Below are positions 1 through 5,418 of a stretch of DNA of 5,418 bases, piece by piece. Source of the DNA: an uncultured Lachnospiraceae bacterium (GTDB lineage Bacteria > Bacillota_A > Clostridia > Lachnospirales > Lachnospiraceae); contig USDU01000171.1 in assembly GCA_900553635.1 (NCBI GenBank), positions 1 to 5,418 of the forward strand, written 5' to 3'. Position numbers and translations under genes: made by a program. The notes under the pieces were generated by a model. The model made no database searches and was not told where the DNA came from. It saw only the letters and a program-made list of their open reading frames with translations. Each line of letters opens with the position of its first letter. Position 1 is the first letter of the stretch.

Positions 1-736
1 AGGCCCGCATGGCCTCCGGGATTCCCGGAACCATCCGTTCCGCGATATCCATGGTAGCCTCCGGCATACAGTCCCGGGGAGAAAAGCCCGTACCCCCGGT
101 GGTCAGAAGCAATTCCGCCACATACTCATCTGCGATGCGCGCCATCTCTTTGGCCAGCATCTCCCGGTCGTCCGGCAGGAGAATCGTATGAACCACCTCG
201 TATCCATTTTTTTCCAGCATCTCTTTGATAGCCGGGCCGCTTATATCCTCCCGTTCTCCTGCGTAGCCGGAATCACTGGAGGTCAGAACCGCTGCACGCA
301 TGGGTCGCTTCACCACGTTTATCTCGTCCCCTTCGGAAATGACGCCGCCCTTCAATACTTTTGTGAAAATGCCTTCTCTCGGCATAATACAGTCGCCCAT
401 AATCTTGTAGATCTCGCAGCCGCTGTGGCACTGCTTCCCGATCTGGGTTACCTCCAGAAGCACGTCGCCGCACTGCAGTCTCGTGCCCACGGGCAGGTGC
501 TTTAAGTCGATACCCCGGACGATCAGATTCTCCCCGAAGGCGCCCTCGTCCACCGGCGCTCCTTTTGCCTTGAAGTCCTCGATCTTTTCATAGGATAACA
601 GGCTCACCTGGCGGTGCCATTTGCCTGCGTGGGCGTCGTTTTCGATACCCCAGTCCTCGATAAGCTTCGCGGAATGCACGTTTTTCTTCTGCGTCCCCTT
701 CTTCTCGCTGATATTTACTGCCATGATCCTGCCCAT
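1..736 (-). CDS. MOSC domain-MogA/MoaB fusion protein, molybdenum cofactor synthesis (3' end cut by window edge)
   Basis: The minus-strand reading frame is open from an ATG at 736 to the window edge and gives 245 residues without a stop. Residues 5-145 form a MOSC domain, a beta-barrel family linked to sulfur transfer and Mo-cofactor handling. It contains the typical clostridial signature KQCHSGCEIYK (101-111) and CIMPREGIF (116-124), with Cys103 as the candidate sulfur-carrying residue. Residues 147 onward start a MogA/MoaB domain: AVLTSSDSGYAGEREDISG (149-167), then the nucleotide/pterin-binding motif TTGGTGFSPRDCMPEAT (212-228). MogA-type proteins adenylate molybdopterin with ATP before molybdate insertion, in the cytoplasm. 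The ATG at 736 is preferred over the in-frame ATG at 724 because a GGAGG lies 9 nt upstream of it. The gene is divergent from fdhD, and moaC lies at the other end of the locus, so a role in the same cofactor pathway is likely. What is missing is the end of the MogA domain. The domain calls are secure; the adenylyltransferase activity is inferred from the family. Confidence 0.93.
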   Translation of the reverse strand, partial: MGRIMAVNISEKKGTQKKNVHSAKLIEDWGIENDAHAGKWHRQVSLLSYEKIEDFKAKGAPVDEGAFGENLIVRGIDLKHLPVGTRLQCGDVLLEVTQIGKQCHSGCEIYKIMGDCIMPREGIFTKVLKGGVISEGDEINVVKRPMRAAVLTSSDSGYAGEREDISGPAIKEMLEKNGYEVVHTILLPDDREMLAKEMARIADEYVAELLLTTGGTGFSPRDCMPEATMDIAERMVPGIPEAMRA

Positions 737-974: not shown

Positions 975-1853
975 ATGTATATCAATGAATTATACGACAA
1001 GCTTCCGCTTCTTTCCGCGGAAACCTATACCTATATCAGCCGGGACGGCGACTGTCATACCGAATCCGAACCGGTTCTCACAGAGCATATTCTGGACGTC
1101 TATCTCAACGATCGACTGACCATGAAGCTGGTCTGTATTCCCCAGTATCTGACTGAGCTGGTGCTGGGCCGCCTTCTGACCGAGGGAATCCTGGAGGACG
1201 CTTCCGATGTCGAACAGATCTATATCTGTGAACACGGGCTGCGGGCACGGGTGATACTGCGTGGAAATAAGGGTGAAAACGAGACGCTGCAAGCCACCGT
1301 AGCCGACAGCCATCCGCAGGCAGGACGTGTTGCTTTGGATGGCGGCGCTTCTCGGGAGCCCTTCACAGAGCTTACGCCCTCCTGCTGCACCGGGAATCAC
1401 ATTTTAAACGATTATTTTCTGACCGGGAAGCCGGTAAAGCCGGTGACTCCCATTTCCTGGAAGGCAGAGCAGGTCTTTGACCTGGCCGACCGCTTCCACG
1501 CAGGTATGCCCCTCCACGGACAGACCTGGGCCACCCACAGCTGTTTTCTTGCAAAGGACGGCCAGCTTCTGTTCCAGTGCGAGGATATCGGCCGGCACAA
1601 CGCCCTGGACAAGGCCATCGGTTACGCCCTGCGCCATGACATCCCGCTCACAGAGTGTATCGTCTATTCCAGCGGCCGGATTCCCACCGATATGGCCATG
1701 AAAGCTATCCGGGCCGGAATTCCCATTCTCGCAAGCAAGGCTTCGCCCACGGCGGAGGCCATCGCGCTGGCGAAAGAATACGGGCTTACGCTGGTCTGCG
1801 CGGCAAGGCGGGATCGGATAAAACTGTTCGCCGGAACGAAGCCGGAAGTCTGA
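975..1853 (+). CDS. fdhD: FdhD, sulfurtransferase for formate dehydrogenase Mo/W cofactor
   Basis: This 292-residue protein is close to the usual FdhD length. FdhD proteins take sulfur from a cysteine desulfurase and pass it to the bis-pterin Mo/W cofactor of formate dehydrogenase, a step needed for activity, in the cytoplasm. The C-terminal half carries the family hallmarks: CEDIGRHNALDKAIG (202-216), the SSGR turn (232-235) and SKASPTAEAIALAKEYGLTL (254-273). The region where E. coli FdhD has its CxxC sulfur-relay loop reads PSCCTGN (135-141) here: two adjacent cysteines (137, 138) and no CxxC. The ATG at 975 follows AGGAG (959-963) with an 11-nt gap and lies about 40 nt downstream of a perfect promoter. 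It is divergent from the MOSC-MogA gene and upstream of the hydrogenase-like sensor. Family assignment is secure; a formate dehydrogenase gene is not in the window, so the client enzyme is inferred. Confidence 0.95.
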   Translation: MYINELYDKLPLLSAETYTYISRDGDCHTESEPVLTEHILDVYLNDRLTMKLVCIPQYLTELVLGRLLTEGILEDASDVEQIYICEHGLRARVILRGNKGENETLQATVADSHPQAGRVALDGGASREPFTELTPSCCTGNHILNDYFLTGKPVKPVTPISWKAEQVFDLADRFHAGMPLHGQTWATHSCFLAKDGQLLFQCEDIGRHNALDKAIGYALRHDIPLTECIVYSSGRIPTDMAMKAIRAGIPILASKASPTAEAIALAKEYGLTLVCAARRDRIKLFAGTKPEV

Positions 1854-1940: not shown

Positions 1941-3698
1941 ATGCCTTCGGTATACGCCGACACCTCATTTCTACAATTCAAAAAAGTACACTGCAGAAAC
2001 TGCTATAAATGCGTCCGGAACTGCCCGGTCAAGGCCATCCGGGTCATCAACCATCAGGCACAGATTCTGGAGGATCAGTGCATCCTCTGTGAGAAATGCA
2101 CTCTGGTCTGTCCCCAGAACGCCAAGGAAGAATTAAATATGATACCCAGGGTGTATGATTTCATCCGAAACGGCGGACAGGTCATCGCCTCTCTCCACCC
2201 GGCCTATGTGGCGGAATTCGGAACTGACAGCCTGCCGGCCCTGACCGAAACTCTGAAAAAGCTCGGTCTGTCCGACGCCTTCGACGCAGCCGCCGGGGCG
2301 TATCTGGTCAAGACCGCTTATGAGGACCTGGTGGAGGAACGGGCCCAGGAGACGCCCACCATTTCCTCCAACTGCCCGGTCATCGTACAGCTGGTCCAGA
2401 AGCGTTATCCGGACCTGGTACCCTATCTGGCTCCGGTCCTGTCCGTGATGCAGGCCCACGCCCGTTATCTGAAGGAACAGTATCCCGACGCGCGGATTCT
2501 TTCTGTCTCCCCCTGTATCTCCGGCCTGGCCCAGATGCGGGAGGCGGACAACTATGTGGATTATGTCATCACCTTCAGCGAGCTGCAGGAATGGCTGACT
2601 GCTGTTCAGGTGCAGGTGGCCGCCCCGTCAAGCGCACCCCCGGACGCGGACCGGGATATCCGGCTTTCCCGCATTATGGCCATGTCCGGCGGCTTTACCA
2701 TGGCCATGCATCCATCCGTTCACCAGCGCTATCTTCCCGCCTGCGGGATCGACAGCTGCAAGCAGATTCTGAATGAATTTATGGCGGATCCGGACAGTTA
2801 TTCCAACTGTTTTCTGGAACTGAACGCCTGTCCCAACGGCTGCATCGGCGGTCCTTCTTTCCGACGTACGAAGACCGGACTGCTCCACGGCCTGATCCGT
2901 CTGCAGAACGCGTCCCTGTACAAAGGCATTTCCAATTATAAACGGGACGATTTTTCGGCGCAGTCCCTGACCGATATCAGCCGCCACTATGACACCTTCA
3001 TACTGCGGCAGCAGGAAACCGAAGCCTCCGAAGAAGATATTAAAAAGGTACTGGCCCAGATGGGAAAATTTGCGCCTGAGGACGAGCTGAACTGCGGAGC
3101 CTGCGGCTATAATACCTGCAGGGAAAAGGCAAAGGCCGTGCTGGCCGGTAAGGCCGAGATCTCCATGTGCGTGCCCTTTATGCGGGAGCGCCAGGAGAGC
3201 TACTCCAACAAAATCATCAACGTGATGCCCGGTATCCTGGTGACGGTGGATTATCAGCTGAAGGTCATTCATATGAACCAGGCCGCGAAGGATCTGTTCG
3301 ACCCGCTCCATAAGCGTACGCTGATCGGCGAGACCGTGTCTGATCTGATGGATGATTACACCCTGATCAATATGATTTCCTTCGATAAAAACATGTCCCA
3401 CGATCAGATTTATCTGGAGGATCGGGATATCTATCTGGAGCGCACCCTGGCCAATGACCGGAAGAATCAGCTGATTCTCTGCGTCATGAAGGATATCACC
3501 CGGGAGATAGAAGAAAAGCAGCGTATCCGGAAGGCCCAGAACAACGCGGCCGCCATGGCTGACAAGCTGGCCTCGGAGCAGCTGAAGCTGGTGCACCAGA
3601 TCGCAAGCCTCCTGGGGGAGACCGCCGCGGACACCAAGGTGGCCGTGGAGCAGCTGAAGCGTACCATTCTCAGAGAGGACGAGGATCGCGATGAATAA
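1941..3698 (+). CDS. Sensory (group C-like) [FeFe]-hydrogenase with ferredoxin, Fe-S and PAS domains
   Basis: This 585-residue soluble protein has, in order: two [4Fe-4S] ferredoxin motifs (Cys18, 21, 24, 28 and Cys47, 50, 53, 57); an [FeFe]-hydrogenase H-cluster domain (about 68-350); a four-cysteine Fe-S motif CGACGYNTC (385-393) plus Cys410; a PAS domain (about 421-520); and a charged helical, probably coiled-coil tail (520-575). The four H-cluster cysteines are present: Cys145 (SSNCP), Cys192 (SPC), Cys297 and Cys301 (ELNACPNGC). The catalytic surroundings are altered: the proton-transfer Cys of TSCCP is Asn144, and the usual Met residues of MPC and EVMAC are Ser190 and Asn295. This pattern and the PAS domain point to a hydrogen or redox sensor, not a working hydrogenase. 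No transmembrane segment or signal peptide is seen, so it should act in the cytoplasm. Its stop overlaps the start of a SpoIIE-type phosphatase, the likely output partner. An H-cluster would need HydEFG maturases from elsewhere. The architecture is clear; the ligand sensed is inferred. Confidence 0.9.
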   Translation: MPSVYADTSFLQFKKVHCRNCYKCVRNCPVKAIRVINHQAQILEDQCILCEKCTLVCPQNAKEELNMIPRVYDFIRNGGQVIASLHPAYVAEFGTDSLPALTETLKKLGLSDAFDAAAGAYLVKTAYEDLVEERAQETPTISSNCPVIVQLVQKRYPDLVPYLAPVLSVMQAHARYLKEQYPDARILSVSPCISGLAQMREADNYVDYVITFSELQEWLTAVQVQVAAPSSAPPDADRDIRLSRIMAMSGGFTMAMHPSVHQRYLPACGIDSCKQILNEFMADPDSYSNCFLELNACPNGCIGGPSFRRTKTGLLHGLIRLQNASLYKGISNYKRDDFSAQSLTDISRHYDTFILRQQETEASEEDIKKVLAQMGKFAPEDELNCGACGYNTCREKAKAVLAGKAEISMCVPFMRERQESYSNKIINVMPGILVTVDYQLKVIHMNQAAKDLFDPLHKRTLIGETVSDLMDDYTLINMISFDKNMSHDQIYLEDRDIYLERTLANDRKNQLILCVMKDITREIEEKQRIRKAQNNAAAMADKLASEQLKLVHQIASLLGETAADTKVAVEQLKRTILREDEDRDE

Positions 3699-4965: not shown

Positions 4966-4979
4966 TCAGGCATATGATC

Positions 4980-5418
4980 ATGAGTGAATTTACACATTTT
5001 AACCGCCAGGGCGAGGCCGTCATGGTGGACGTAAGCGCCAAGGCCGAGACCGCAAGGGAGGCTGTGGCTGAGGGCCGTATCTCCATGAGCCGGGAATGCT
5101 TTGAAAAGGTAAAGGAAGGGGAAATGGGAAAGGGCGACGTGCTGGGCGTGGCCCGGGTGGCCGGAATCATGGGGGCCAAGAAGACCTCCGAGCTGATTCC
5201 CCTCTGCCACCTGCTGCATCTGACCAAGGTGGAGATAAGCTTTGAACTGGAGGAAGAGACCTCCTCCGTCCGGGCGGCCTGCACCGTCCGCACCACCGGC
5301 AGGACCGGCGTGGAGATGGAGGCCCTGACCGGCGTTTCCACCGCCCTGCTCACCATCTATGACATGTGCAAGGCCGTGGATAAGGGCATGGAGCTGGGCG
5401 AGATCCATCTGGTGGAAA
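4980..5418 (+). CDS. moaC: MoaC, cyclic pyranopterin monophosphate synthase (3' end cut by window edge)
   Basis: The frame gives 146 residues up to the window edge; E. coli MoaC has 161, so only about 15 residues should be missing. MoaC converts 3',8-cyclo-7,8-dihydro-GTP, made by MoaA, to cyclic pyranopterin monophosphate, the first stable molybdopterin intermediate, in the cytoplasm. It aligns without gaps to E. coli MoaC as I recall it: [20 protein letters not shown] (5-24), Lys51 in GKGDV, IPLCH with His77, TGVEMEAL (109-116) and TIYDMCKAV (125-133) with Asp128 and Lys131. These are the known active-site residues. The usual PLCHPL reads PLCHLL here. ATG 4980 is chosen because AGG (4968-4970) lies 9 nt upstream; the in-frame ATG at 4974 would add only two residues and is too close to that site. 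It follows the phosphatase by 86 bp in the same direction. No clear promoter was seen, so read-through from upstream is possible. Confidence 0.95.

Follow-up and report, generated by a model that had tools for sequence, protein, structure and literature searches.

It is assumed that sensory [FeFe]-hydrogenases detect H2 through a full H-cluster, and the locus described here raises the question of what such a protein may report once the pocket of its [2Fe] unit has changed. The locus is located on contig USDU01000171.1 of an uncultured Lachnospiraceae bacterium (assembly GCA_900553635.1), in a stretch of 5,418 nucleotides referred to here as the window, and it encodes a HydS-like protein of 585 amino acids next to a SpoIIE-type phosphatase. 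Our stronger finding, as judged from sequence comparisons, is that this protein belongs to a subclade of phosphatase-linked HydS proteins with a rebuilt [2Fe] pocket, so far seen in loci for formate dehydrogenase and molybdenum cofactor (Moco) functions.

A profile search placed a Fe_hyd_lg_C match at amino acids 80-305 of the 585-aa open reading frame (ORF) (E = 1.1e-37), the H-domain family PF02906 scored 130.4 bits against a cut-off of 22.1, and the best PDB matches of the protein fold were [FeFe]-hydrogenases. The H-cluster ligands are Cys145, Cys192, Cys297 and Cys301, and the alignment bears out these residues as well as the SSNCP motif with Asn144, Ser190 and Asn295, all of which had been proposed in an initial annotation. 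In place of the group A signatures TSCCP and MPCxxKxxE the protein reads SSNCP and SPCISGLAQ. The annotation had also described PCxxKxxE as degraded to PCISGLAQMRE; the Lys and the Glu are indeed gone, but the motif is not stretched and matches without gaps as PCISGLAQ, with Gly195 at the position of Lys358 in the hydrogenase CpI and Gln198 at that of Glu361. We take CpI Lys358 to be the anchor of the distal cyanide, a residue expected of a functional H-cluster protein, and its position is occupied by Gly195 here. Other CpI positions referred to are A230, P231, S232, C300, P301, P324, C355, K358, E361, G418, C499 and C503. The positions C299, M353, M497 and F417 are named in published work (PMC8163306, PMC10055695).

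A homology search with the window protein returned 7924 proteins at E <= 0.001. Pocket residues were tallied in the window protein and 156 full-length homologues (157 proteins, the subclade) and compared with 113 locus proteins outside the subclade. The homologues were picked by similarity to the window protein (the best 120 of 7924 matches) and to P0049 (the best 120 of 5423), a choice that carries no information on how frequent the subclade is, and four fragments (P0030, P0038, P0039 and P0041) were left out. The second set excludes four long kinase-type proteins and five second-ORF matches from a total of 122 matches. All 16 Fe-S cysteines, including the four of the H-cluster, are retained in 157/157 subclade proteins. 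Lys358, present in 111 of the 113 relatives and replaced by Arg or Ala in the remaining two, is absent from all 157, whereas a His at the position of Ala230 is found in every subclade protein and in none of the relatives. Other positions around the [2Fe] unit differ as consistently: Pro324 (0/157 vs 113/113), an aromatic residue at Phe417 (0/157 vs 112/113), Gly418 (Ala in 156/157 vs Pro in 111/113), Ser232 (Ala in 155/157 vs Ser in 105/113) and Met353 (Ser in 154/157 vs Gly in 109/113), while Pro191 is invariant in the subclade (157/157). Since the loss of the Lys and the change at residue 144 are common to all 156 full-length homologues, neither is due to chance or to sequencing error. We also added 12 H-domain proteins of other types, taken from the three genomes with subclade members described below and from genomes G176 and G001, to anchor the alignment columns; the Lys column holds Lys in 12/12 of these and the His column holds His in 0/12. 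Their group A-like and B-like labels are presumptive and rest on motifs and length. The two HydS proteins outside the subclade in which Lys358 is likewise missing are those of L139 (genome G160, Ala) and L085 (G355, Arg).

The distinguishing changes are the loss of Lys358 and the replacement of Ala230 by His, and not Asn144, which had been put forward as a notable change that may tune affinity. That proposal did not survive the comparison, because position 299 is a poor marker. Cys is present there in 78 of the 113 relatives and in none of the 157 subclade proteins, and the subclade itself does not hold Asn: residue 144 is Asn in 131/157 proteins including the window, Ala in 18, Ser in 4, Gln in 3 and Thr in 1. 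In tree neighbours the position is Ser (L037) or Cys (L038). According to a count of HydDB sequences, only 17% of sensory enzymes have Cys at position 299, and the same paper, on Thermotoga maritima HydS, states that sensory enzymes keep the residues that form hydrogen bonds to [2Fe] (PMC10055695). By this comparison the missing Cys299 of the subclade is ordinary, while its pocket departs from the rule on hydrogen-bonding residues.

We inferred the relationships of the protein with FastTree. The tree covers phosphatase-linked and kinase-type relatives, the group A-like and B-like proteins having served only for the alignment columns. The window protein and 23 homologues chosen from the first 120 formed one clade with a support of 1.0 on a stem of 0.61, nested among lineages that keep Lys358 and placed next to the proteins of G215 and G321, both of which keep it. 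With the proteins of the three genomes G869, G883 and G884 the clade grew to 27 members, again with a support of 1.0; these three share the His, the lost Lys and the 16 cysteines at 56-60% identity. A single supported clade inside Lys-keeping lineages indicates that loss of the Lys took place on one stem. HydS relatives (E <= 1e-60) are present in 114 of 393 genomes sampled from one bacterial class, and a phosphatase gene adjoins the relative in 111 of 116 fetched loci. Four of the five loci without it encode longer proteins (748-884 aa), which we presume to be of a kinase type on the basis of length and not of a domain search. Because the tree nests the window protein among phosphatase-linked relatives, we consider it to derive, as part of a long-branched subclade, from [FeFe]-hydrogenases of the phosphatase-linked sensory type (HydDB C3-like, hfsB/HydS type), in line with the kinship to sensory HydS that had been suggested. 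A sample of 150 genomes of the family yielded G869, and one of 397 genomes of the same rank (E <= 1e-140) only G869 and G883. The only hit in 299 genomes of the phylum (E <= 1e-138) was G215, outside the subclade, and a scan of viral contigs yielded no subclade member.

The distribution of constraint differs between the subclade and its relatives. At a matched overall identity of 0.50-0.56 the H-domain is less conserved in the subclade than among other relatives (0.434 vs 0.482), whereas the PAS-like region is more conserved (0.599 vs 0.454); the values come from 136 and 419 pairs, respectively, which are not independent, and the subclade is represented by 23 of the first 120 proteins and the window. 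A shift in constraint with new pocket residues fixed looks like new use more than decay.

In overall organization the protein resembles known sensory enzymes. HydDB group C3 has the same order of Fe-S domains, H-domain, FeS cluster and PAS-like region and an adjacent Ser/Thr phosphatase gene (PMC5037454); here the adjacent gene is a PF07228 member with an 8-nt overlap, and a Cx2Cx4Cx16C cluster, a motif described in PMC8163306, follows the H-domain as Cys385/388/393/410. Unlike group C3, the subclade has lost Lys358, carries His at Ala230, differs at other [2Fe] contacts and has a formate and Moco context. HydS-type proteins also lie beside serine phosphatase genes in the hfsABCD operon of Thermoanaerobacterium (HfsB and HfsC; PMC11837493) and in Ruminococcus albus (PMC6776011), but both are located with hydrogenase genes, whereas the 5.4-kb window holds none besides the HydS-like gene. 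Compared by description, T. maritima HydS shares the changed C299, M353 and M497 positions and has a PAS domain, where the window protein has a PAS-like region; the conservation of hydrogen-bonding residues described for sensory enzymes does not extend to the Lys in the subclade (PMC10055695). The group D enzyme TamHydS, also compared by description, shares changes at the same positions (C299 to Ala, M353 to Ser; PMC11803613) and the C-terminal Cys motif (PMC8163306), but is described as having no PAS domain (PMC13104023), in contrast to the PAS-like region of the window protein. The titles and beginnings of abstracts listed from open-licence literature, a body of text outside which most subscription journals fall, contained no sensory hydrogenase without Lys358 and no operon of HydS with formate dehydrogenase.

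The gene neighbourhood sets the subclade apart as well. Genomes G869, G883 and G884, which belong to one genus, were reached through an fdhD search via G176. The gene order is fdhA-selA-selB-moeA-mobA-fdhD-mobB-moaA-hydS-like-phosphatase-spoIVA in G884, moaA-pair-spoIVA in G883, where the contig ends just before moaA, and nuoF-fdhA-selA-selB-pair-nuoE-nuoF in G869 (L172). The formate dehydrogenase of the latter (L172, 8072-10819, minus strand) is fused to a NuoG-like N-terminus and contains one in-frame TGA, a probable selenocysteine codon, which corresponds to residue 367 when the stretch is translated. Genes for formate, selenocysteine or Moco functions were found within about 4 kb in 4/4 subclade loci (the window and the three genomes) as compared to 3/112 others, for which about 4 kb of flanking sequence was taken on either side if the contig was long enough, four kinase-type loci being dropped. 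Fisher's test yielded p = 5e-6 for the four loci and 8e-5 for three, and about 0.0016 if the genus is counted once (2/2 vs 3/112). The three exceptions are an FdhA-like ORF in L105 and a MOSC-Mog gene on the opposite strand in L139 and L142; a SelB-like match in L057 was not counted as formate context. The gene sets of the 112 loci resemble the hfs operon of Thermoanaerobacterium (PMC11837493). In 95/112 there is a small protein resembling the PF01257-type protein upstream of L040, called HfsA-like by position, and in 62/112 a further H-domain gene nearer to the catalytic types than to HydS; Pfam names for neighbours in Lys-keeping loci were obtained for 10 proteins in 4 loci. In the window and in the subclade loci L173 and L174, nothing matched the small protein found upstream in hfs-type loci.

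We consider it most plausible, with a probability of roughly 0.45, that the protein senses redox state or a ligand on behalf of formate metabolism, through a re-tooled, non-standard site in which the [2Fe] unit is rebuilt or absent, and absence is slightly favoured over re-anchoring. Electrons from a low-potential carrier would enter via the N-terminal clusters and pass to the retained [4Fe-4S] cluster of the H-domain. The remodelled pocket, with His86, Asn144 and Ser190 and without Lys358, would no longer bind H2 like a standard H-cluster, because the [2Fe] unit is either absent or attached differently. From there the state could be relayed via the C-terminal cluster, the PAS-like region and the long helix, possibly by conformational change instead of cluster reduction, to the SpoIIE-type phosphatase, which may adjust the output of formate dehydrogenase or of cofactor synthesis via a putative phosphoprotein. 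It is unlikely, but far from negligible, that the whole subclade has dispensed with [2Fe] and that the emptied pocket binds another small ligand or a different iron centre; the pocket would then be lined by His86, residue 144 and mostly Ser190, and the gene context makes formate the obvious candidate. If so, the result would be a receptor built on the hydrogenase fold, with formate or one-carbon redox state as the signal passed to a phosphatase. The earlier suggestion of a sensor that binds hydrogen or reports redox state thus holds for the sensory kinship, whereas H2 binding is in doubt because Lys358 is lost, Ala230 is replaced by His, further positions of the [2Fe] pocket have changed, and the neighbouring genes are different.

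Several observations weigh against the formate-sensor interpretation and some of them suit a sensor of H2 with a complete H-cluster, in which His86 would replace Lys358 as the cyanide partner, Asn144 and Ser190 would tune potential and affinity, and the signal would act on the genes of formate dehydrogenase or, as before, on hydrogenase genes located elsewhere. Every H-cluster Cys is kept, including the bridging Cys301 (157/157), His86 could re-anchor the cyanide, and several of the newly acquired pocket residues show no drift, being invariant or close to it. HydE and HydF were found over the cut-off in all three hosts (G869, G883 and G884), and group A-like and B-like H-domain proteins with normal motifs are encoded there too, for which reason [2Fe] is probably made in these hosts. 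TmHydS and TamHydS accept [2Fe] despite changes at the C299, M353 and M497 positions (PMC10055695, PMC8163306, PMC11803613). Hydrogenase-like nuoE-nuoF genes lie beside the pair in L172 and, compared by eye, resemble the nuoE-nuoF genes that adjoin an H-domain gene in G883 (L177), so the pair in G869 may be located between formate dehydrogenase and hydrogenase genes. The formate context comes from four loci, of which three belong to a single genus, and in L105 (G117, 3999-9800) a HydS pair that keeps the Lys is located downstream of NuoF-like and FdhA-like ORFs, by which the formate link may predate the change of the pocket. We nevertheless regard the H2 sensor as somewhat doubtful, since Lys358 is kept in nearly all relatives and in all 12 added proteins, the Pro324, Phe417 and Gly418 positions have changed too, and HydG was over the cut-off in 0/3 hosts. 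The cyanide-contact residue mutated by Knoerzer et al. 2012 is said to have been Lys358. In the text of a review, which names an arginine, substitution of Asn for the residue next to the distal cyanide abolished the infrared and electron paramagnetic resonance signals of [2Fe], so that a mutation at this contact loses the unit (PMC11376134).

Two further explanations fit less well. A relic in decay, retained solely for a structural role beside the phosphatase, would agree with the reduced conservation of the H-domain at matched overall identity, but the ORF is intact and His86, Pro191, the 16 cysteines (each 157/157) and Ala247 (156/157) are fixed, and we find this improbable. Least probable of all would be a poor but real catalytic hydrogenase: the fold and the cluster ligands are there, but the proton-transfer Cys and other pocket residues are lost, the protein has a PAS-like region and is paired with a phosphatase, and the three hosts encode other H-domain proteins that bear group A-like motifs.

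The maturases do not decide between a filled and an empty pocket. The search for HydG in the three hosts (E <= 1e-40) gave best matches of about 204-206 bits, below the cut-off, in genomes that consist of many contigs and may have assembly gaps. Three of the four genes with such matches (L194, L203 and L204) adjoin ThiF- and ThiG-like ORFs, and we presume from this context that they are ThiH-like. The lack of HydG over the cut-off could fit hosts unable to make [2Fe], yet it supports no conclusion. In the 393-genome sample, HydG (E <= 1e-60; 241/244 over the cut-off) was present in 94/114 genomes with a HydS relative vs 150/279 others. This is a general association only, none of the 114 genomes having a subclade member, and absence of maturases was discarded as proof that [2Fe] is absent. 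Separately, G176, in which none of HydE, HydF and HydG exceeded the cut-off, encodes an H-domain ORF of 729 aa (L190) with the motifs SQPCP and SPCIAKK.

Features of the 5,418-nt window, with the observations that identify them
Feature	Position	Strand	Observation
MOSC-MogA-type fusion, divergent from fdhD, cut by window start	2..736	-	PF03473, PF00994
FdhD, formate dehydrogenase accessory sulfurtransferase	975..1853	+	PF02634, E 4.8e-57; 87 nt upstream of HydS-like gene
HydS-like protein, 585 aa	1941..3698	+	two [4Fe-4S], H-domain, C-terminal [4Fe-4S], PAS-like region, long C-terminal helix
2x[4Fe-4S] N-terminal domain, Cys18-Cys57	1992..2111	+	Fer4 families; 8 Cys in 157/157
His86-Pro87-Ala88 (CpI Ala230-Pro231-Ser232)	2196..2204	+	subclade-specific His, 157/157 vs 0/113
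SSNCP, aa 142-146; Asn144 at CpI Cys299 position, Cys145 ligand	2364..2378	+	alignment
Val169 (CpI Pro324 position)	2445..2447	+	Pro 0/157 vs 113/113
SPCISGLAQ, aa 190-198; Ser190 (Met353), Cys192 ligand, Gly195 (Lys358), Gln198 (Glu361)	2508..2534	+	Lys 0/157 vs 111/113
Met246-Ala247 (CpI Phe417-Gly418)	2676..2681	+	aromatic 0/157 vs 112/113; Ala 156/157 vs Pro 111/113
NACPNGC, aa 295-301; Asn295 (Met497), Cys297 and Cys301 ligands	2823..2843	+	alignment
C-terminal Cx2Cx4Cx16C cluster, Cys385/388/393/410	3093..3170	+	PF04060, E 2.3e-11; Cys 157/157
PAS-like region, boundaries approximate	3213..3500	+	PF13426, 18.8 bits, below cut-off 27; mixed strand/helix in model
Long C-terminal helix, probable coiled coil	3501..3677	+	helix 520-584 in model, predicted local distance difference test score (pLDDT) about 41-78
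SpoIIE-type PP2C phosphatase, 400 aa	3691..4893	+	PF07228, E 6.5e-19; 8-nt overlap with HydS-like gene
MoaC, Moco synthesis, cut by window end	4974..5417	+	PF01967, E 8.7e-58

The phosphatase residues D35, D52, D166 and D222 are kept in all 113 aligned partner phosphatases. With its anchor Lys dropped and a fixed His gained, the subclade offers a natural test of what an H-domain requires to hold [2Fe], and its formate dehydrogenase, selenocysteine and Moco context suggests that the fold is reusable for another signal. The source record of one member, P0124, names an uncultured Blautia, and the subclade may thus bear on the traffic of formate and H2 in gut bacteria.
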